IMG/VR virus record: IMGVR_UViG_3300034682_000313
Location: 1-20,101 of that record
Strand: one strand, 5' to 3'
Length of the DNA: 20,101 nt
Source of the DNA: a virus
A program made the translations under genes and the position numbers. A model generated the notes under the pieces. That model had not been told where the DNA came from. It did no database searches and saw nothing but the letters and a program-made list of their open reading frames with translations. Each line of letters starts with the position of its first letter. Position 1 is the stretch's first letter. Shown here in pieces: positions 950 to 20,101 of this stretch.

Positions 950-1379
950 GGTACTGACCCGCTGCGTGCCCCACCTCAAGACAAACCCCGACAAGCTGCA
1001 CATCTTCATCGCCCCGGGCAATGTCGAAAGCACCGGCGCCAGCTCGCTCTCGTTCGAGTGGCAATACCCCCTCACCATCGGCATCGAGGACTTTGCCGGC
1101 CACCCGGACCAGATCATGGTGCCGCTGCTGGCCTGGCTGCGCCAACACCAGCCCGATCTGATGACCAACGACGAGCGACGCAAGGAGGGCATCACCTTCG
1201 AGGCAGAATACCTCGCGAGCGACCTGATGGACCTCATCATCACCGTCAAGCTGACAGAGCGGGTCAGGGTGTGGCAAAACGAACAGGGTATAGGCTGGGA
1301 ACACCTGCCAGAGCCGCCTGAAGACCCCTATGACGGCATCACCTGGGAACTCTTCACCGATGAAGGGCATCAGCCATGA
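924..1379 (+). CDS. R: Tail completion protein R
   Basis: A 151-residue protein beginning MEKPKQIREVL, of the size of P2 gpR (about 155). It includes the segment TNPDKLHIFIAPGNVESTGA, which I recognise as typical of gpR homologues. In P2, R and S are needed to finish the tail so that it can join a filled head. A strong ribosome site (GGGAGGGAG, 914-922) precedes the ATG, although the start overlaps lysC by 26 bases. Its stop overlaps the next start as ATGA at 1376-1379, so R and S are coupled. The position after the lysis cassette and before S is the canonical P2 one. Confidence 0.88.
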   Translation: MEKPKQIREVLTRCVPHLKTNPDKLHIFIAPGNVESTGASSLSFEWQYPLTIGIEDFAGHPDQIMVPLLAWLRQHQPDLMTNDERRKEGITFEAEYLASDLMDLIITVKLTERVRVWQNEQGIGWEHLPEPPEDPYDGITWELFTDEGHQP

Positions 1380-1834
1380 TCACCGACGACCTGAACCGCC
1401 TGACCAGCTGGGCCGACGGTCTGCTGGCCAGCATGGAGCCCGCCGCCCGCCGTCAGTTGGCGGGCGAGATGGCCCGCACCTTGCGCGCCAGCCAGGCCCA
1501 GCGGATCCGCGCCAACCGCCAGCCAGATGGCACCCCCATGGCCCCGCGCAAGCCGCAGCCCAAGCTGAAGACAAACCGGGGGCGCCTACGCCGCAAGATG
1601 TTCTTCAAAATCAGTAGCCCAGCCTGGCTCAAAGCCCGTGCCAATGAACATCAAGCCCTGGTCGAGTTTGCCGGCACCGCCAACCGGCTCGCCACCATTC
1701 ACCAGTACGGTCTCAAAGACCGCATCAAGGGGCGCGAGATCTCATACCCGGCGCGGGAACTGCTCGGCATCACAGAACAAGAACTTGACCAGCTAGAAAC
1801 CACCCTGCTCGCCCACCTCACCAAAGGACTTTAA
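1376..1834 (+). CDS. S: Tail completion protein S (virion morphogenesis family)
   Basis: A 152-residue protein, close to the roughly 150 of P2 gpS. The N-terminal half contains a basic stretch (MARTLRASQAQRIRANRQP, then MAPRKPQPKLKTNRGRLRRK). The central IHQYGLKDRIKGREISYPAR and the following LLGIT segment are characteristic of the phage virion morphogenesis family, where the H-x-YG block precedes a conserved YPAR-LLG block. In P2 it acts with R in tail completion. It is translationally coupled to R by ATGA and is the last gene before a 78-base gap that holds a palindromic element, which suggests the end of one transcription unit. Confidence 0.88.
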   Translation: MITDDLNRLTSWADGLLASMEPAARRQLAGEMARTLRASQAQRIRANRQPDGTPMAPRKPQPKLKTNRGRLRRKMFFKISSPAWLKARANEHQALVEFAGTANRLATIHQYGLKDRIKGREISYPARELLGITEQELDQLETTLLAHLTKGL

Positions 1835-1842
1835 CCATCGCC

Positions 1843-1883
1843 GCCAGTGTGCCAGCGCCGTACACACTGGCCGCCCCTCGCCT
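1843..1883 (+). repeat. Late-operon palindrome, copy 1 (upstream of V)
   Basis: A 9-bp inverted repeat, GCCAGTGTG and CACACTGGC, separated by 11 bases and followed by CGCCCCTCGCCT. The same arrangement, with identical arms, identical spacing and 11 of 12 matching trailing bases, recurs at 8187-8227 before FI. It lies between S and V, where P2 has late promoter PV. There is no T-run after the stem, so it does not look like an intrinsic terminator. A binding site for a late activator (the Ogr role in P2) is my inference. Confidence 0.8.
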
Positions 1884-1912
1884 TCCCGGTCATTGCCCAA
1901 AACAATGGCCCC

Positions 1913-2485
1913 ATGCAACCGACCCCGACTGAACTCCAACGCCTGATCGACAACCTGATCCGCATCGGCACCGTAATTGCCGTGCGCTCCGGGGAGTGTC
2001 GCGTCAAGAGCGGCAACAACAAGACTGACTGGCGGCCCTACGCAGCAGCGCGGGCCGGGAAGAATCGCACCCGCCATCGCCTCTCCATTGGCGAACAGGT
2101 GCTGATGCTCTCGGTCAGCGGCGATTTGCGCAATGCCTACATCGTCGGTCCCATCCACTGCGACGCCTTCCCAGAGCCCTTGGCGAATGATGACAATCCG
2201 GACCTCGACCGCACCGAATACGCTGATGGCGCAGTCATCGAATACAACCCGGCCACCGGCGCGCTCAACGCCACCGGCATCAAGACCGCCACCCTCTCGG
2301 CCTCCGTTACCGTCAAGCTGATCACCCCCCTGGTGGAATGCACCCAGGCACTCAAGGTCGGTTCGACCATCGAGGCGGGCGGCAAGATCACCGCTCCCAC
2401 CGCCAAGATTGGCGGCATCGAGGTGACCACCCACAAGCACGGCAACGTCAGCACCGGCAGCGGCACCTCCGGGGGCCCGCAATGA
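1913..2485 (+). CDS. V: Baseplate assembly protein V, tail spike tip
   Basis: A 190-residue protein from the ATG at 1913. This start puts MQPTPTELQRLIDNLIRIGT in register with the start of P2 gpV, whereas the longer open frame from 1847 would translate the palindrome region. The N-terminal part is an OB-fold-like hub (SVGEQV-type block at LSIGEQVLMLSVSGDL). The middle consists of alternating short strands (AVIEYNPATGALNATGIKTA) expected for the trimeric beta-helix needle. The C-terminus has THKHG, the H-x-H motif that coordinates iron at the tip of the P2 membrane-piercing spike. No good ribosome site is visible before 1913. It overlaps W by 4 bases (ATGA). Confidence 0.9.
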   Translation: MQPTPTELQRLIDNLIRIGTVIAVRSGECRVKSGNNKTDWRPYAAARAGKNRTRHRLSIGEQVLMLSVSGDLRNAYIVGPIHCDAFPEPLANDDNPDLDRTEYADGAVIEYNPATGALNATGIKTATLSASVTVKLITPLVECTQALKVGSTIEAGGKITAPTAKIGGIEVTTHKHGNVSTGSGTSGGPQ

Positions 2486-2853
2486 ACTGGCTCGGCATGA
2501 ATGCCGCCACCGGCCGCGCCATCAGCGCCACCGACCACATCATCCAGTCGGTGCGCGACATCCTCATCACCCCGGTGGGCTCCCGCGTCATGCGCCGCGA
2601 CTACGGCAGCGAGCTCTTTTACCTCATCGACCAGCCCCAGCATCAGGCCACCCGCCTGCGCCTGATGGCCGCCACCGTGCAGGCCCTTATCAACTGGGAA
2701 CCCCGCATCACCATCACCCGGGTCGATGTGCTGGGCGGCGGCATGGATGGCGCCCTCACCGTCGAGCTCACCTGGCAGCGCAAGGACGGCGGCGCGCCGG
2801 GTACCAGAACAGAGAGCGCCACTATTGCCATCCCCACAGGAGCCGCCCAGTGA
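2482..2853 (+). CDS. W: Baseplate protein W (gp25-like wedge)
   Basis: A 123-residue protein starting at the ATG that overlaps the V stop. The N-terminal region SVRDILITPVGSRVMRRDYG is the signature of the T4 gp25 / P2 gpW baseplate wedge family. It continues into SELFYLIDQP, which is also conserved. Gp25-like proteins trigger sheath contraction at the baseplate, so this protein should join J and I in the wedge. The same frame is open further upstream inside V, but starting there would add residues without family support. Its stop overlaps the GTG start of J. Confidence 0.92.
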   Translation: MNWLGMNAATGRAISATDHIIQSVRDILITPVGSRVMRRDYGSELFYLIDQPQHQATRLRLMAATVQALINWEPRITITRVDVLGGGMDGALTVELTWQRKDGGAPGTRTESATIAIPTGAAQ

Positions 2854-3761
2854 GCACCATCACCCTCTCCCAACTGCCACAGCCTGATGTGATCGAACTG
2901 CTGGACTTCGAGACCATCCTGGCCGAACGAAAAGCCTATTTCGTCAGCCTCCACCCGGCAGACCAACAACCCAGCGTCGAGGCCACCCTGGCACTCGATT
3001 CCGAACCTATCACCAAGCTGCTGCAAGAGAATGCCTATCGCGAGCTGATCCTGCGCCAACGCATCAACGAAAGCTGCATGGCTGTGATGCTGGCCTATGC
3101 TGCTGGCGCAGACCTGGACCATCTCGGAGCAAACTTCAACGTGCAGCGCCTGCTGATTGACGCAGGCGACCCAGATGCAACCCCGCCAAGACAGCCGACA
3201 TACGAGACTGACACCGACTTTAGAACCCGCATCCAGTTATCGTTCGAGGGGATCAGCACGGCGGGCAGCAAGGGCAGCTACCTCTTCCACGCGCTGAGCG
3301 CAGACGCTGATGTAAAAGACATCGATGCGGTGACCCAAACCCCCGGTAACGTCACCGTCTACGTATTGTCACGGTCAGGGAATGGCACGGCCTCACCGGA
3401 TCTGCTTGCGGCCGTGAAGACCACCCTGAACGCCGACCATACCAGGCCAATGACCGACCAAGTGACCGTGCAATCGGCTGCCATCGTGGACTACACGGTG
3501 GAGGCCGAGCTTGTGATCCTTCCAGGCCCCGCCCCTGATGTTGTGCGCCAGGCGGCCATCGACGCCATCACCTCCTATACCGAGGCACAGCGCAAGATCG
3601 GGTACGACGTCAACTTGTCAGGTGTCTATGCCTCCCTGCACCAGCCGGGTGTGCAGCGTGTAAACCTGACCAGCCCCGTCGCCAACATTCCGATTGGTGA
3701 CGGCCAGTCGAGCTACTGCTCCAACATCACTATCACCGTAGCGAGTGCCACCGATGTCTGA
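2850..3761 (+). CDS. J: Baseplate protein J
   Basis: A 303-residue protein, essentially the P2 gpJ length (302). It starts with GTG overlapping the W stop (GTGA at 2850-2853). The opening block LPQPDVIELLDFETILAERK and the block ENAYRELILRQRINESCMAV, followed by YAAGADLDHLGANF, are standard for the baseplate J family (PF04865). It builds the inner baseplate wedge with W and I. The last bases overlap the start of I (ATG at 3754). The middle, around nucleotides 3160-3480, is less GC-rich than the neighbouring V and W, but the protein shows no break. Confidence 0.92.
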   Translation: MSTITLSQLPQPDVIELLDFETILAERKAYFVSLHPADQQPSVEATLALDSEPITKLLQENAYRELILRQRINESCMAVMLAYAAGADLDHLGANFNVQRLLIDAGDPDATPPRQPTYETDTDFRTRIQLSFEGISTAGSKGSYLFHALSADADVKDIDAVTQTPGNVTVYVLSRSGNGTASPDLLAAVKTTLNADHTRPMTDQVTVQSAAIVDYTVEAELVILPGPAPDVVRQAAIDAITSYTEAQRKIGYDVNLSGVYASLHQPGVQRVNLTSPVANIPIGDGQSSYCSNITITVASATDV

Positions 3762-4362
3762 ATTGCTGCCGCCAAGCTCGACGCCGCTGGAACGGGCACT
3801 GGCTGACACGGTGGCCAAGGTAAGCACCCTGCCGACCCCAGCGCGGGATTTATGGAACCCTGACACTTGCCCCGTGGAGCTGTTGCCATGGCTGGCCTGG
3901 GCCTTCTCGCTGGATGACTGGGATGTGACATGGACTGAGTCCCAGCAGCGCGCAGCCGTGAAAGCCAGCTACAGCGTGCACCGGTACAAGGGCACCATCG
4001 GCAGCGTGAAGGATGCGCTGCAGGCGCTTGGTCTCGGCGTGCAGGTACAGGAGTGGTTTAACCAGATCCCTGCAGGTGACCCATATACCTACAAGCTGCT
4101 GCTGGAAGTGAACCAGTACGGTGTCAGCCTGGCGCAGCTTGAAACGATCCAGGCCGTGGTGGATAACGCCAAGAACCTGCGTTCACACATGACCACGCTG
4201 GACATGACTGTCTCCAGTAACTCCACGGTCTACATCGGCGCCGTGGCTATGTCCGGCAACGAGATCGCATTCAGCCACCCGGCAGGAACCCTGATCGCGG
4301 ATGGCACCTATATCGCCGACGGCTCTCAAGTAGCCAGCGGCCTGATTACTTATGGAGCATGA
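3754..4362 (+). CDS. I: Baseplate/tail protein I
   Basis: A 202-residue protein from the ATG at 3754 (MSELLPPSSTPLERAL). This start was preferred over an in-frame ATG three codons earlier, because the P2 family begins with a short polar segment before LERAL. The family core is LWNPDTCPVELLPWLAWAFS, then DDWD and AVKASYSVHRYKGTIGSVKD, all typical of phage tail protein I. The C-terminal 50 residues (from about MTVSSNSTVYIG) are a Gly/Ala/Thr-rich extension, probably a docking surface for the following fibre or spike. It ends one base before the ATG of the tailspike. Confidence 0.92.
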   Translation: MSELLPPSSTPLERALADTVAKVSTLPTPARDLWNPDTCPVELLPWLAWAFSLDDWDVTWTESQQRAAVKASYSVHRYKGTIGSVKDALQALGLGVQVQEWFNQIPAGDPYTYKLLLEVNQYGVSLAQLETIQAVVDNAKNLRSHMTTLDMTVSSNSTVYIGAVAMSGNEIAFSHPAGTLIADGTYIADGSQVASGLITYGA

Positions 4363-4363
4363 G

Positions 4364-6499
4364 ATGTCTGATTTTGATGGAGCCCTGACCCCTTCTGCTG
4401 GCTGGCCTGATGTTCCGCAGGCATCTGATGTGATGCGCTTGCTGGGTGGCGAAGGCGGTCCGCTCAATGCGCAGGCCGAAGCCCTTGCAGCTCGCACCAA
4501 TCTGCTCCGCGCCAACGTCAGCGAAGCACTGCGCCGCAGCTACGCAGAGGCGGGTTACAACGTCGCGGGGACGTTCCAGGCTGGGTTTACCATCGCCAGT
4601 TCCAATGACATTGGAATCGACCTGGCTACCGGGAAGGGTTACACGGGGCCATCTGGCCCGGTTGCGCCAGGGACTGACCCGACTAGTGGGGGGTTTGTTG
4701 ACCGTTCTGATGCATTGTGGCGCCCTAAGACCCCAGATGATTTCTCCGGCACTGACCAGCAGAAAATTGAGGCATGGCTTGCTGCTGGAGGGGCGCTAGA
4801 AATTCGCCGCGATTACACTATGACGTCTGTTGTTGCTGTTACTGTTTCTAACGCTAAGGTTTCTGGTCATGGGCGGATCATATTCCCTGCATCCGTTAGC
4901 ACCAGCGGCACCGTCCTTAGCATCACGGGCAACAACAACAAGCTCAAGGAGATGCACATTGTCCATCAAGGGTCGATGCTGAATGCCGGCGCTCTTGTCA
5001 CCGTAACTGGAAACAAGAATCGGTTGGAGAATGTCGAGTCAACCTTCCTGACTGAGTACAATCCAACCGTAGAGGGTGAGCAATACAAGGGCACCTGCAT
5101 TGCCTTGGTAGGAGACTCCAACTCTGCCATCGAGTGCTACGGGGAAAACAGCGGGACAGGCGTCAGCGATAACGGCAAAAACAACTTGCTGCTGCGAAAC
5201 ACCTTCAATAAGAGCTGTCGCATTTTGGTAAACGGAAATAAGTCACGCCACGCTATTGTTGATGGCAACACTGGCGACTGCCAGCACAAGGGCTATCCGC
5301 TGCAAGGCTGCGATGGGATCTGGGGCAACCGTTCCCACCGCTTCACGAAGTACAGCAATAACACCATCATCAACCCGGGTGAGCACGGAGCATATCTCCA
5401 GGGTGATGGGTTTACTTGGGACAAGACTAATCGGGTGGAGGGCGCCAAGAAGTGCCTCCTTAAAGTAGGTGCCAAAGCCGAAGGAAATTTTGCGTATCCC
5501 GGCGAAACTCTCCCGTTGTTTGACGAATTTGGTGTGCCGGATGCAATAAGTGGAGTCTACGCGACCACAGGTGCATTCATTGCGCCGAGGGGTTCTGGGA
5601 ATAACACTACCGCTAGCTCTGACGGATGTGTTTGCCTACAACCTAACATCGCTGACTTGGTGATCGATGAGTATGAAGTGGTTGACAATCCAGACTCTCC
5701 GTTTGGTATTCGTTCATTGTATTTCGCGTATGGCAGCGCAGGTTTACAGGTTATGTCTAACCTGAAAGTGCTCGATGGTAAGGTGCTACGGTCTGGGTCG
5801 TCGTCCTTTGCATGTGCAGACAACCTTGAAATCGACGGGTTCTACTCAGGGCAGAAACTGAATATTTCGGCGGCAGATGCGCCGCAGGGCACAAAAAATG
5901 TGACAATCCGCGCTGAGTGCCCTTCCATCGACTTCACCACGGCTCCAGATGGAATAAAAATTATCGGCGGGAAGTATCAGTACATATCAGAAAGTAGCGG
6001 CCTCAACATCGAGATATTCGACGCAGAAATAACTAGGCAAGATATCGGCGGGTCGTGGGCAAACGGCCGAGTCGTTCGACTGCAAGACACGAAGGTGAAA
6101 TGGCTCGGCACCTCCGTTTTCAACATCAACGGGGTTGATAATGTCGTTGACTCAACTTTCGATCTTCCTGACGCAAACGGTTCATATCCTTTGCAGTTCA
6201 ATTTCAATAGCCCCCTCCCGTCACAAGGGCATTTTGACGGCAATACCATTCGAGCGCCGCTTTCTGAACGGCCAGTTAGAATTGGTGGTTCTGATGCCAC
6301 CTGCAATTCCAACGTAATCGTTGGTTCCGCATCTGCCAATTACACCCTGACTATCCAGGGCAGCAACGTGACGGCGGTCGGCAACGCCCTGAATGCAGGC
6401 GCAGTGCGACTGGATACTGCGGCGACAAACTGTTTTGTTGTCGGGAAATCTGTTTCCAACGGTAACGCCGCGGGCGGCAACGTTGTTGTCACCAGTTAA
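4364..6499 (+). CDS. Beta-helix tailspike protein, candidate polysaccharide depolymerase
   Basis: A 711-residue protein. The ATG at 4364 was chosen because GGAG at 4354-4357 is well spaced; an ATG at 4352 in the same frame adds four residues. Residues 1 to about 115 look like a particle-binding head (AEAGYNVAGTFQAGFTIASS, then LATGKGYTGPSGP). From about residue 130 (GTDQQKIEAWLAAGGALEIR) the sequence turns into short alternating strands with many N, G, V, I and T residues, as in right-handed beta-helix (pectin-lyase-like) tailspikes. Such spikes bind and often cut O-antigen or capsule. Catalytic residues cannot be named from sequence alone. Base composition and codon use (AAT, GTT, ATA, AGT) are clearly more AT-rich than the flanking genes, pointing to separate acquisition. 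P2 has no gene here. Confidence 0.8.
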   Translation: MSDFDGALTPSAGWPDVPQASDVMRLLGGEGGPLNAQAEALAARTNLLRANVSEALRRSYAEAGYNVAGTFQAGFTIASSNDIGIDLATGKGYTGPSGPVAPGTDPTSGGFVDRSDALWRPKTPDDFSGTDQQKIEAWLAAGGALEIRRDYTMTSVVAVTVSNAKVSGHGRIIFPASVSTSGTVLSITGNNNKLKEMHIVHQGSMLNAGALVTVTGNKNRLENVESTFLTEYNPTVEGEQYKGTCIALVGDSNSAIECYGENSGTGVSDNGKNNLLLRNTFNKSCRILVNGNKSRHAIVDGNTGDCQHKGYPLQGCDGIWGNRSHRFTKYSNNTIINPGEHGAYLQGDGFTWDKTNRVEGAKKCLLKVGAKAEGNFAYPGETLPLFDEFGVPDAISGVYATTGAFIAPRGSGNNTTASSDGCVCLQPNIADLVIDEYEVVDNPDSPFGIRSLYFAYGSAGLQVMSNLKVLDGKVLRSGSSSFACADNLEIDGFYSGQKLNISAADAPQGTKNVTIRAECPSIDFTTAPDGIKIIGGKYQYISESSGLNIEIFDAEITRQDIGGSWANGRVVRLQDTKVKWLGTSVFNINGVDNVVDSTFDLPDANGSYPLQFNFNSPLPSQGHFDGNTIRAPLSERPVRIGGSDATCNSNVIVGSASANYTLTIQGSNVTAVGNALNAGAVRLDTAATNCFVVGKSVSNGNAAGGNVVVTS

Positions 6500-6520
6500 C
6501 CAATCCTTGGGGCTCCAGAG

Positions 6521-7852
6521 ATGACTTACAAGTGCATTCACACAACTGTCGGCCTTGCTTTGATGGCCGAAGCCGAGGCGACAGGGACACAGATCCGGCT
6601 GACCCATGTCGCCGTCGGGGATGGGAACGGCAACCCTATCACGCCGTCCGAGGGAATGACCCAGCTTGTCCGCGAGCGGTATCGGGCGACGGTGAACCGG
6701 GTCTGGCAGGATCCTGACACCTACAACAAGTTCAGTGCCGAGATCATCATCCCGGCCACTGTCGGCGGTTTCACGCTACGTGAGGTGGGGGTGTTCGACA
6801 GCAACGGTAACCTTTTTGTGGTGGGTAACCTGCCGGATACCTACAAGCCGACCGATACCGACGGCGCTTACAGCGACACGGTGATCCGCGTCGACTTCAT
6901 GGTGACAAACGCCAGCGTCGTGCAAATCATGGTCGACCCGAACGTTGTCGTTGCCACTCACCAGTGGGTGATGAATACGATTACCGTGTGCGCCCTCCTG
7001 CCTGGTGGCACCACTGGGCAGATCCTGGCGAAGAAGTCCAACGCCTGCGGCGACATCGAATGGAAGGACCCGACAGACGTCAATATCACGGTCAACAGCA
7101 TCGAGGAAACCCAGACGCTGGCCGCCGCGCAGACTCAGGTAGACTGGGCGGTGGTGAACAACACCGGGCTGGCCGTCTATGTGGAAGGGGTGCGCCTGCG
7201 TGCTGACGAGTTCACCAAAGACCCCATGATCAACACCAGGATCACGCTGACGCAAACCTACCCAGCCGGTGCGAAGATAGTCGGCACACAGAACGAGCCT
7301 GCAGGCACGCTGCCGGATCCGTTGGTGAAGTCGCAGAACCTGAACGATGTGCCGAACAAGCAGACGGCGCGGACAAACCTGGATGTGTTCAGCAAGAGCG
7401 AAACCAGGCAGATGGCTCCGCCAGGTCTGGTGGCGCACTTCGCTCGCAGCACCGCCCCAGCAGGCTGGCTCAAGGCCAACGGGGCCGCCGTGTCTCGCAT
7501 CGCCTATGCAGATCTGTTCGCTGCTATCGGCACCATATTTGGCGCCGGCGACGGGTTCAACACCTTCAACCTACCTAACCTGCGTGGTGAATTTCTGCGT
7601 GGCTGGGATGATGGGCGCAACGCTGACCCGGGCCGCGTCTTTGGCTCGGCCCAGGCTGACGCCATTCGAGCGCACAACCACAATGTCCCCGCCTGGAAGG
7701 CAACGCAGCCAGACCCAACGGGCGGCCCCAGCGCGGTAGGTGCTGACTCGGGTGGTGGTGGATCTGAACAAGACGACATTGTTACCAGAACCACCGGCAG
7801 CGCCGAGACGCGGCCGCGCAACGTGGCCCTTCTGGCCTGCATCAAGTTCTAA
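6521..7852 (+). CDS. H-like tail fibre with C-terminal collar domain
   Basis: A 443-residue protein. The N-terminal 150 residues (MTYKCIHTTVGLALMAEAEA, RLTHVAVGDGNG, VGGFTLREVGVFD, GNLFVVGNLP) match the N-terminal domain of P2 gpH-type fibres that attaches to the baseplate. A linker of about 150 residues contains the fibre-like segment LVKSQNLNDVPNKQTARTNL. The C-terminus carries a phage tail collar domain: VAHFARSTAPAGWLKANGAA, FNTFNLPNLRGEFLRGWDDG, and the final RPRNVALLACIKF. It is much shorter than P2 gpH (about 670), so the variable receptor-binding shaft is reduced. It follows the tailspike by 21 bases and precedes a small assembly protein, so the virion probably carries both adhesins. 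Confidence 0.88.
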   Translation: MTYKCIHTTVGLALMAEAEATGTQIRLTHVAVGDGNGNPITPSEGMTQLVRERYRATVNRVWQDPDTYNKFSAEIIIPATVGGFTLREVGVFDSNGNLFVVGNLPDTYKPTDTDGAYSDTVIRVDFMVTNASVVQIMVDPNVVVATHQWVMNTITVCALLPGGTTGQILAKKSNACGDIEWKDPTDVNITVNSIEETQTLAAAQTQVDWAVVNNTGLAVYVEGVRLRADEFTKDPMINTRITLTQTYPAGAKIVGTQNEPAGTLPDPLVKSQNLNDVPNKQTARTNLDVFSKSETRQMAPPGLVAHFARSTAPAGWLKANGAAVSRIAYADLFAAIGTIFGAGDGFNTFNLPNLRGEFLRGWDDGRNADPGRVFGSAQADAIRAHNHNVPAWKATQPDPTGGPSAVGADSGGGGSEQDDIVTRTTGSAETRPRNVALLACIKF

Positions 7853-7861
7853 GGGGGAGAC

Positions 7862-8155
7862 ATGAGCACTAAACCTTGTTTTCAGTTCGATCATGCCGGC
7901 CTTCTTCAAGGGGAGACGGTTGCCGACGAGTCGCCGTTGGAGCCAGGCGTATTCCTGCTCCCATCCGGCTGCACCTTCACCGCGCCGCCGTCAACCGTGC
8001 CAGACGGTCAGTGGCCGCGATGGAACGGCAGCACCTGGGATCTGGTGACCAAGACGACCCCCGCCAACGACAACCAGGACCCGGTAGCAAAGCTTCAGGC
8101 GTTCCTGTCTGCTAACCCAGACGTCGCCGCGCTACTGCAATCCACCACAGGCTGA
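7862..8155 (+). CDS. Small tail fibre assembly protein (chaperone-like)
   Basis: A 97-residue protein with an excellent ribosome site (AAGGGGGAGA, 7851-7860) right after the fibre stop. The middle reads EPGVFLLPSGCTFTAPPSTV then GQWPRWNGSTWDLV, a pattern seen in small phage tail assembly proteins encoded after fibre genes (a P/G-rich loop, then a W-x-G-x-x-W motif). The C-terminal part is a short helix (DPVAKLQAFLSANPDVAALL). It occupies the place of the P2 fibre chaperone G but is about half as long and not clearly homologous. A role in folding or trimerising the collar fibre is inferred from position. It could instead be a minor fibre-tip protein. Confidence 0.65.
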   Translation: MSTKPCFQFDHAGLLQGETVADESPLEPGVFLLPSGCTFTAPPSTVPDGQWPRWNGSTWDLVTKTTPANDNQDPVAKLQAFLSANPDVAALLQSTTG

Positions 8156-8186
8156 CCTGCCACCACCCTCACCTTGTCACCGATTC

Positions 8187-8227
8187 GCCAGTGTGTAAGG
8201 CCCTCACACACTGGCCGCCGCTCGCCT
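8187..8227 (+). repeat. Late-operon palindrome, copy 2 (upstream of FI)
   Basis: The arms GCCAGTGTG and CACACTGGC are separated by 11 bases, and one more inner T:A pair makes the stem 10 bp. CGCCGCTCGCCT follows. It matches the element at 1843-1883 in arms, spacing and trailing block, while the central 11 bases differ at about half the positions. It lies in the 160-base gap before FI, where P2 has late promoter PF. As in copy 1, no T-tract follows the stem. Confidence 0.8.
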
Positions 8228-8315
8228 GTCATCCCCAGCCCCTGCATCCTGACCCTGCTCGCATCACAGGCATTACCTACGCACAGAATGCTCCGTCCGG
8301 ACAACAGGAGAACCT

Positions 8316-9494
8316 ATGGCACTGGACCAATTTCACCACGGCGTGCGCGTCGTGGAAGTCAACGAGGGCACGCGCACCATCCGCACCGTCGCCACGGCGG
8401 TGATCGGCATCATCTGCACTGGCAGCGATGCGGATGCCGCTTACTTCCCCCTCAACAAACCCGTGCTGATTGCCAACCTGCCGGCGGCCATCGCCAAGGC
8501 GGGCAGCACCGGCAACCTCAAACGCTCGCTGCAAACCATCTATGACACCGTCAACACCATCGTCATCGCCGTGCGCGTGGCCGATGGCGCCGACGCCGCC
8601 GAGCTGACCAGCAACATCATCGGCACCATCCTGCCGGATGGCAGCTATACCGGCCTCAAGGCGCTGGAGCGGGCCGCCCCGGTCACGGGCGTCAAGCCGC
8701 GCATCCTCTGCGTGCCGGACAACTGCACCCTCCCCATCGCCACCGCCCTGGCGGGCGCCGCCAAAAAGCTGCGCGCCTTCGCCTATGTGCCGACCATCGC
8801 CGACACCGTAGAGGCGGCACTCGCCTACCGCGAGAACTTCTCCAGCCGCGAACTGATGCCGATCCACGGCGACTGGACCGCCTGGGACACCGCCGCCAAT
8901 GCCAGCATCAAGCTCGATGCCTGCCTCAAGGCGGCCGCCATGCGGGCATTCATCGACAAGGAGATCGGCTGGCACAAGACCCTGTCGAACGTCGGCGTGA
9001 CCGGGGTCGACGGCATGACCAAGGCCCTGTTCTGGGATCTGCAAGACCCCGATACCGAGGTCGGCCTGCTCAACGCCAACGAAATCACCGCTCTCATCCG
9101 GTCCGATGGTTTCCGGTACTGGGGTAACCGCACCTGTTCCGATGACCCGCTGTTCGCCTTCGAGAACTACACCCGCACCGCCCAGATACTGGCCGACACC
9201 ATGGCCGAGGCGCACATGTGGGCCAACGATAAACCGCTCACCCCCACCCTGGTGAAAGACATCATCGAGGGCATCAAGGCCAAGGGCCGCGAACTGGTGG
9301 CGGGCGGTTACCTGCTCGGCTTTGACTGCTGGTACAACGAGGAGCTCAACGACAAAGACACCCTCAAGGCCGGCAAGCTGCGCATCGATTACAACTACAC
9401 CCCGGTACCGCCGCTCGAAGACCTCGGCTTCATCCAGCGCATCACCGACACCTACCTCATCGACTTCGGCGCCCGCGTCGCGGCCGCCGCATAA
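8316..9494 (+). CDS. FI: Contractile tail sheath protein FI
   Basis: A 392-residue protein, very close to P2 FI (396). It opens with MALDQFHHGVRVVEVNEGTR, the classic start of P2-type sheath proteins, and contains VIGIICTGSDADAAYFPLNK and later VGVTGVDGMTKALFWDLQD. The C-terminal domain ends TYLIDFGARVAAAA. Sheath subunits polymerise round the tube and contract on infection. AGGAG at 8306-8310 gives a good ribosome site before the ATG. This is the first gene of the FI-FII-E-T-U-D operon and follows the second palindromic element by 100 bases. Gene FII begins 9 bases after its stop. Confidence 0.95.
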   Translation: MALDQFHHGVRVVEVNEGTRTIRTVATAVIGIICTGSDADAAYFPLNKPVLIANLPAAIAKAGSTGNLKRSLQTIYDTVNTIVIAVRVADGADAAELTSNIIGTILPDGSYTGLKALERAAPVTGVKPRILCVPDNCTLPIATALAGAAKKLRAFAYVPTIADTVEAALAYRENFSSRELMPIHGDWTAWDTAANASIKLDACLKAAAMRAFIDKEIGWHKTLSNVGVTGVDGMTKALFWDLQDPDTEVGLLNANEITALIRSDGFRYWGNRTCSDDPLFAFENYTRTAQILADTMAEAHMWANDKPLTPTLVKDIIEGIKAKGRELVAGGYLLGFDCWYNEELNDKDTLKAGKLRIDYNYTPVPPLEDLGFIQRITDTYLIDFGARVAAAA

Positions 9495-18341: not shown

Positions 18342-20101
18342 TCAATCGGGCAGCCTGACCTTGTGCCCAGCCCGCAGCAATCCGCCCAGACCGTGCTCTT
18401 CCAGATATCGGGCAAACAGGCCCCGCAGCACGTGAGGATTGTCATGCTTGAGACCATCCGCCATCAGCGTCTTCAACTCGCCAAGGTCGGATTGCCGCAG
18501 CACGTATTTGATACGGGAGATGTTGTGGGTATTCATGCTGAAACGACGATAGCCCATGGCCAGCAGCAGCAGCACTCCGACCGGATCGCCAGCCAGCTCG
18601 CCACAAACAGAGACCGGCTTGTGATAGCGCCGAGAGGCATCGACCAACAGTTGCAAAGCGCGGATCACCGCGGGATGGAAGGCATCGTAGATGCTGGCGA
18701 CACGGGCATTGTTGCGATCCACCGCCAGCAGGTACTGGGTCAGGTCGTTGCTGCCCACCGACCAGAAGTCGATGAGCGGCGCCATCTCCGGCAGGATGTA
18801 CAGCGCGGAGGGGACTTCGATCATCACCCCGAGACTGGGGTAGCGGATCACCGCATCGCGGCTGGCCGCTTCTTCCGACACCTCGCGCCACGCCTGATCC
18901 AGCAGACGACGGGAGGCCTTGATTTCACTGACACTGCTGATCATCGGCAGCATGATGGCCAGATTGTCCAGCCCTTCGCTGGCCCGCAACATAGCCTTGA
19001 GCTGAACCAGGAAGAGTTCGGGGTGATCCAGGGTGAGCCGGATCCCCCGCCAACCAAGGAAGGGATTTTCCTCCACGATGGGAAAATAGGGCAGTTGCTT
19101 GTCCCCCCCCACGTCCAGAGTCCGCATGCAAACCGGGCGATCCCGATAGGTTTCCAGGATCCCGCGATAGCGGGCAGTCTGCTCCCACTCCGAAGGGAAG
19201 CTGTCCTGCAGCATGAAGGGGATCTCGGTGCGATAGAGCCCGACCCCGTCCGCCAGATGATTGAGGGAAATCTCGGTATCCGCACTCAGCCCTGCGTTGA
19301 GCAGCAGAGAGACCTTGGTGCCGTCGGCGGTCTCGGAGGGCTGGTTGTCGACGCTGCGCACCAGGGTGTCGAGTGCCCGCTCCTCACTCAGCAGTTGCCG
19401 GTACTCGGTCAGGATCACCTGGTTGGGTTCGATGAAGAGATCGCCGCTGTAGCCATCGATGACCAGAGTGCGACCGCCGATGTCACCGAGAGGCAGATCC
19501 ACCCCCATGATGGCCGCCACCCCCATGGCACGGGCCAGGATGGCGGCATGGGAGTTGGTCCCGCCCTTGAGCGACACCACACCGCTCAGAAATTCCCTCG
19601 GGATCTCCGCAAGGATAGTGGCCGTCACTTCATCGGCGACCAGCACCACGGGTTCGCCGATGGTGAGCTGCTCGGGTTCGTCCTGCACCAGCCGGCTGAT
19701 GAGCCGCTGGGCGATGTCTTTCACATCGGTGGAGCGCTCCCGCAGATAGGGATCCTTCATCCCCTTGAACTGCTCTATCAGCCGATCGCTGATGAGTTTG
19801 ACCGCCGAAATCGCCGTCCAGTGTTCCTTGCTGACCTTGTTGCGGATGGGCTTGATGTAGCCGGGATCGTTAAGCAGGTGCAGATAGATGTCGAAGATGG
19901 CGACCGAGTCCTGGCTGTAGCTCTCGCGAAAGCGCAGTGCCAGGCTCTCCAGATCATGGCGCACTTCCTCCACTGCCAGCTCGAGACGGGCAAGCTGCTT
20001 GGCATGATCCTCGTCCTTGCGCGGCGTGATGGTATTGAGCGCCTTGCGCGGACGCCACACCCAGGCCTTGGCGATGGCGATGCCACTCGCCCCGGCAATA
20101 C
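18342..20101 (-). CDS. ptsP: Phosphoenolpyruvate-protein phosphotransferase PtsP (EI-Ntr), C-terminal part
   Basis: The frame runs off the right edge; the visible 586 residues cover the enzyme I portion, and the N-terminal GAF sensor domain is outside. The visible sequence begins IAGASGIAIAKAWVWRP, which starts the enzyme I domain. The phospho-accepting histidine lies in KGGTNSHAAILARAMG. The PEP-binding barrel shows GLYRTEIPFM, LDVGGDKQLPYF, NPFLGWRGIRL and VGSNDLTQYLLAVDRNN, and the catalytic cysteine lies in SVCGELAGDP. It passes phosphate from PEP to NPr in the nitrogen PTS. The arrangement ptsP-lgt-thyA matches E. coli. An internal GTG at 20060 is not the true start. Confidence 0.96.
   Translation of the reverse strand, partial: IAGASGIAIAKAWVWRPRKALNTITPRKDEDHAKQLARLELAVEEVRHDLESLALRFRESYSQDSVAIFDIYLHLLNDPGYIKPIRNKVSKEHWTAISAVKLISDRLIEQFKGMKDPYLRERSTDVKDIAQRLISRLVQDEPEQLTIGEPVVLVADEVTATILAEIPREFLSGVVSLKGGTNSHAAILARAMGVAAIMGVDLPLGDIGGRTLVIDGYSGDLFIEPNQVILTEYRQLLSEERALDTLVRSVDNQPSETADGTKVSLLLNAGLSADTEISLNHLADGVGLYRTEIPFMLQDSFPSEWEQTARYRGILETYRDRPVCMRTLDVGGDKQLPYFPIVEENPFLGWRGIRLTLDHPELFLVQLKAMLRASEGLDNLAIMLPMISSVSEIKASRRLLDQAWREVSEEAASRDAVIRYPSLGVMIEVPSALYILPEMAPLIDFWSVGSNDLTQYLLAVDRNNARVASIYDAFHPAVIRALQLLVDASRRYHKPVSVCGELAGDPVGVLLLLAMGYRRFSMNTHNISRIKYVLRQSDLGELKTLMADGLKHDNPHVLRGLFARYLEEHGLGGLLRAGHKVRLPD

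Follow-up and report, generated by a model that had tools for sequence, protein, structure and literature searches.

Palindromic sites at the late tail operons of an Aeromonas P2-like prophage as predicted operators for an Ogr-type activator

Late promoters of P2-like phages and the two palindromes of the window

The late promoters of P2 and Smp131 carry the motif TGT-N12-ACA (PMC3931495), phages phiRSY1 and phiRSA1 have TGTTGT-N13-ACAACA at four late promoters (PMC5694545), and the late genes of the satellite P4 respond to the Ogr protein of its helper (PMC8628076). The DNA analyzed here, hereafter called the window, is the whole 20,101-base IMG/VR record IMGVR_UViG_3300034682_000313. It contains the right-hand portion of a P2-like prophage, with lysis genes, R, S, V...H and FI...D, followed by host genes that include an nhaA-type antiporter confirmed with Pfam. 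Its closest named relative is Aeromonas phage vB_AsaM_LPM4 (OL348188, hereafter LPM4), the similarity to which ends at about 14.64 kb along the window; another prophage relative, L003, also has the flank beyond 14.74 kb in common with it.

As the preliminary description of this DNA had reported, the palindrome GCCAGTGTG-N11-CACACTGGC is present in two exact copies, at 1843-1871 (centre 1857) and 8187-8215 (centre 8201), neither of which has a strand of its own. Their uniqueness in the window was also confirmed: no further copy was found in it with up to three mismatches allowed (0.02 expected from dinucleotide shuffles), and the looser core pattern A[GT]TGT-N13-ACA[AC]T matched there the same two copies and nothing else. 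Copy 1 separates gene S (tail completion; 1376-1834, plus strand; Pfam Phage_tail_S, 4.5e-31), the final gene of the upstream late operon, from gene V (baseplate spike; 1913-2485, plus strand; Pfam Phage_base_V, 5.8e-9), and its centre indeed lies 56 bases before the V ATG. It is followed on the plus strand by a trailing block, CGCCCCTCGCCT (1872-1883), and by the putative -10-like hexamer of PV, AACAAT (1901-1906). Copy 2 comes after the last open reading frame before PF, which closes the V operon in the tail-fibre assembly position (7862-8155, plus strand) and has no Pfam match. Downstream of it, again on the plus strand, are the block CGCCGCTCGCCT (8216-8227), the putative -10-like hexamer of PF, CATCCT (8245-8250), a Shine-Dalgarno AGGAG (8306-8310) and gene FI (tail sheath; 8316-9494; Pfam Phage_sheath_1, 3.4e-18, and Phage_sheath_1C, 7e-20). 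Both blocks have the form CGCC[C/G]CTCGCCT noticed earlier, the CTCGCC part of which is kept in the promoter consensus of V and FI in Aeromonas relatives, and both hexamers lie at +44 to +49 from the palindrome centre, where V, FI and P promoters have a -10-like hexamer.

We consider it very probable that the two elements are operators at PV and PF for the own Ogr/Delta-type activator of this Aeromonas P2-like prophage, and the earlier proposal of dimeric activator sites at P2-type late promoters gains support from their conservation, from the copy at P/O and from the Ogr genes of relatives described below. A symmetric protein, presumably a dimer, would touch both TGT/ACA half-sites, some 55 bp ahead of the start, and bring the host RNA polymerase to a promoter having a weak -10 and no good -35 sequence, which would switch on the tail operons V...H and FI...D. 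One more copy, lying between P and O outside the window, would serve both capsid operons divergently.

Conservation, symmetry and the candidate activator

The tail sheath protein was used to gather Aeromonas relatives. Wherever the stretches before V and FI are present in them, an element of equal length stands there, which answers the question of conservation raised in the preliminary description, and all these relatives have sites of the type CA[GT]TGT-N13-ACA[AC]TG before V, FI and P/O. The copy that had been sought before the capsid operons is present between P and O in LPM4 (19131-19159, identical to its other element) and in other records. The genes that open the late operons have the site shortly before them, V and FI in the window and P/O in LPM4 and others. 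Corresponding TGT-N12/13-ACA sites occur at the same distance before V in Pseudomonas, Ralstonia and enterobacterial relatives.

A scan of the whole of IMG/VR for the exact pattern GCCAGTGT-N13-ACACTGGC returned 68 sites in 59 stretches, 63 of which are late-promoter sites: 62 stand beside P/O, V or FI, and one lies at a contig end exactly where FI should come next. The remaining five (L209, L215, L233, L243 and L259) look like chance matches. Among these exact sites the distance from the centre to the ATG is 56 for V wherever it could be aligned, nearly always 56 or 57 for P, 90 or 93 for O and 102-125 for FI, so that TGT-N13-ACA is centred about 50-90 bases before the start codon, and slightly further for FI. 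In 37 Aeromonas genomes we found 17 exact sites, distributed over 9 genomes, with a reversed-pattern control giving 0. Thirteen of the 15 sites that were examined are P, V or FI promoters and two head an operon in another mobile element; the scatter over unrelated chromosomal places that had been considered as evidence to the contrary was not seen among them, none of the 15 being inside an unrelated chromosomal gene.

The invariant core is TGT-N13-ACA, of fixed total length and with a variable loop. In relatives having arms without the GTGTG/CACAC repeat (CAGTGTATCC...GGATACACTG or CATTGTGTAA...), TGT-N13-ACA alone holds. The spacing of 11 or 13 given in the preliminary description can thus be narrowed to 13, the only value constant among relatives; a spacing of 11 was discarded, being a second reading of the GTGTG/CACAC repeats. 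The suggestion of a diverged or different type of activator site is not needed either, for N13 has been published for phiRSA1 and phiRSY1 (PMC5694545). These two phages, which have an Ogr homolog in the genome, share with our locus the core, the spacing of 13 and a position at P2-like late operons, and differ from it in the outer and inner arm bases, which here are CAGTGTG, CATTGTG or CAGTGTATCC, and in the shorter extent of their perfect palindrome. The P2 promoters PP, PO, PV and PF belong to the same genes, with one site shared by P and O and another whose centre precedes the V ATG by about 56 bp, but P2 has a spacing of 12, so that its exact dyad does not occur here, and a weak right half-site. 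LPM4 resembles the window in having the element at P/O, V and FI, and carries an Ogr/Delta gene at 32142-32459; it is distinguished by arms of the CAGTGTATCC type and by an Ogr subclass other than the one prevailing among the relatives closest to the window. In these respects the operator is an ordinary, well-conserved one of an already known kind, encountered in a new host group, and the late-activation code of P2 would then reach Aeromonas with a motif precise enough for operons and dependent satellites to be found by sequence.

The Ogr-like gene for which a search had been advised was recognized as an Ogr_Delta zinc-finger gene (PF04606) in 18 of 21 related records, LPM4 included; the window has none, its record being limited to the right-hand portion of the prophage and ending short of the expected place. 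Binding of the late operator by a different regulator, namely a host factor or another helix-turn-helix protein of the phage, could be entertained because the palindrome exceeds the P2 sites in length and perfection and the residues of Ogr that recognize DNA cannot be read from the sequence here. We nevertheless regard it as very improbable, since position, core and spacing agree with the published motifs of Ogr sites (PMC5694545; PMC3931495), Ogr_Delta genes accompany most related records, and the relatives in other genera keep equivalent sites equally far before V.

Additional information comes from the variation of the arms, which among phages include GCCAGTGTG, GCCATTGTG, GCCAGTGTATCC and GCTAGTGTGCC and are nearly always self-complementary. 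In 46 distinct sites, retrieved with a search pattern that left complementarity unforced at arm pairs 4, 5, 9 and 10, pairs 4, 5 and 9 are 96-100% complementary while using two different base pairs each, well above column shuffles, and the complementarity of pair 10 also exceeds that of column shuffles. G-T intermediates are absent from pairs 4 and 5, and few or none are found at the four pairs overall. Such matched changes are the signature of a symmetric DNA-binding protein. Certain phages have differing arm types at differing promoters, which counts against a strict reading of the whole arm by the activator.

The same features bear on whether the palindrome acts as RNA, that is, as a hairpin serving the upstream operons at their ends for termination, processing or attenuation. 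A perfect inverted repeat of 9-12 bp would fold into a stable hairpin in read-through from S or from the last part of the V operon, but no U-run follows the palindrome, the loop varies whereas neither the total length nor TGT-N13-ACA does, and the symmetric substitutions at pairs 4 and 5 pass through no G-T intermediates. Moreover, P and O are divergent, so that neither operon's own transcript would include the copy lying between them, which argues against an RNA element at that position. On account of this divergent copy and of the symmetric substitutions the hairpin was dropped, and we would assign it an even smaller chance than a different regulator. A recombination, packaging or DNA-uptake repeat without any role in transcription is the least credible alternative, for although repeats at module borders can aid recombination, and the tail modules are mosaic with mixed arm types in certain phages, the starts of P, V and O as well as the -10-like hexamer keep their distance from the palindrome within a few bases, and the site also stands at the head of an operon in an unrelated mobile element.

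At least three Ogr subclasses can be distinguished in Aeromonas P2-like phages (L093-L110), beginning with MRLICPHCG, MRFPCPHCG and MSKFFPCPHCG. The MRFPCPHCG subclass is paired with CAGTGTATC-type sites only, while sites accompanying the other subclasses are of the TGTG type or mixed. The idea that Ogr class and arm type strictly co-evolve was rejected and is retained as a lead only: class B (MRFPCPHC...) occurs exclusively with CAGTGTATC-type sites, but class A is mixed, its exceptions by hand tally being the FI sites of G009, G010 and G070-G072 and the P site of G074. Shewanella phage M16-3 has a different palindrome before P, GCGGTAT-N10-ATACCGC, which is centred 56 bases before the P ATG together with TACACT-GGCGCC-ATG and suggests a different half-site for the Ogr of this phage.

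Predicted start points of V and P

The V ATG of the window follows AACAAT by 6 bases and lacks a Shine-Dalgarno sequence. The distance from the site to V is the same in Aeromonas, Pseudomonas, Ralstonia, Yersinia, Pantoea and P2 itself; from centre to ATG it measures 54-57.5 in 59 of the 67 distinct V genes having a detected site. For P the corresponding value is 55-57 in 33 of the 34 genes where a site was detected; the distances of O and FI are larger. Across diverse P2-like phages V starts 6-7 bases after the -10-like hexamer, and in V and P, unlike O, FI, W and FII, the mean best match to TATAAT is highest at exactly 6 bases ahead of the ATG. The TAGACT-GGCGCC-ATG unit of Aeromonas P promoters stays whole when its distance from the palindrome changes by one base. 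A Shine-Dalgarno motif was counted in 7 of 104 V genes and 3 of 52 P genes, compared with 106 of 128 FI and 102 of 115 FII genes.

Ogr sites lie near -55 of the transcription start. Combined with the distances of V and P and with the position of the hexamer, this leads to the prediction that V and P are transcribed from the A of their start codons. We consider it likely that V mRNAs, and usually P mRNAs, are leaderless; the suspicion that V is nearly so, voiced in the preliminary description, appears to apply to much of the P2-like family. Start codon and predicted transcription start would coincide for V in the window and for P in relatives, whereas FI and O would have ordinary leaders with a Shine-Dalgarno sequence, that of FI being about 59 nt long if transcription starts near 8257 as predicted. 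Three observations speak against the leaderless reading: the P gene of P2 itself has a short leader with a Shine-Dalgarno sequence, the predicted anti-Shine-Dalgarno pairing of P genes is not weak (median -4.9), and the motif does appear in the 7 V genes counted above. A search of the open literature for leaderless mRNAs of the P2 family or published start maps of P2-like phages found nothing usable. Should V and P be leaderless, a very common phage family would translate structural genes by a route thought to be rare in gammaproteobacteria, which may permit their synthesis when ordinary initiation is impaired or set a low copy number.

In many P2-type V promoters (for example before V in L203) the -10 region is overlapped by another, shorter inverted repeat, such as GCCGCCGG-N6-CCGGCGGC in P2 and CATTG-N7-CAATG in the window (1891-1908). 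This repeat may serve the upstream operon as a terminator that overlaps the V promoter.

Tandem sites in a second Aeromonas element

The two sites of Aeromonas genomes lying outside phage late promoters precede a small HTH gene in an element that also has an integrase, AlpA, AntA, a primase-helicase and a hint of a MobV-like relaxase. This HTH gene was found in six Aeromonas genomes, all six of which have two late-type sites exactly 90 bp apart (11517-11635 in L397, G022:C67; 9245-9363 in L398, G050:C102; also L400-L405). Behind the tandem promoters is a conserved operon encoding the HTH protein and proteins of about 104 and 275 residues. The 104-residue protein matched nothing in Pfam, PHROGs or NCBIfam and the 275-residue protein nothing in these databases or the PDB; a single-sequence AlphaFold model of the latter was poor (pLDDT 52).

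The presence of tandem sites in an unrelated element independently supports action of the site in trans for the phage activator, and the element is probably a satellite of P2-like phages, such promoters being what a satellite that exploits the activator of its helper would carry. It resembles P4 in combining an integrase, AlpA and a primase-helicase with tandem sites of the helper type. It differs from P4, the activator of which is Delta, in that the scanned proteins of the Aeromonas element gave no Pfam or PHROGs match to Delta, Psu or Sid, and in showing the MobV-like hint instead; because none of the three was recognized in the proteins scanned, we have not filed the element as P4-like. Taken jointly, the propositions that the palindrome is a helper-satellite regulatory code, whereby Aeromonas satellites without Delta, Psu and Sid would be switched on by the Ogr of their helper, and that V and P mRNAs are leaderless in much of the P2-like family, stand in our judgement in even balance. 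With its tandem sites the AlpA-primase element offers a helper-satellite pair open to direct test. These sites lie 167 and 77 or 173 and 83 bp before the ATG of the HTH gene, mostly with the hexamer CATCAT or CAACCT at the -10 position of the phage promoters, and while the bases of the half-sites vary among the copies, the core and the 90-bp step are constant.
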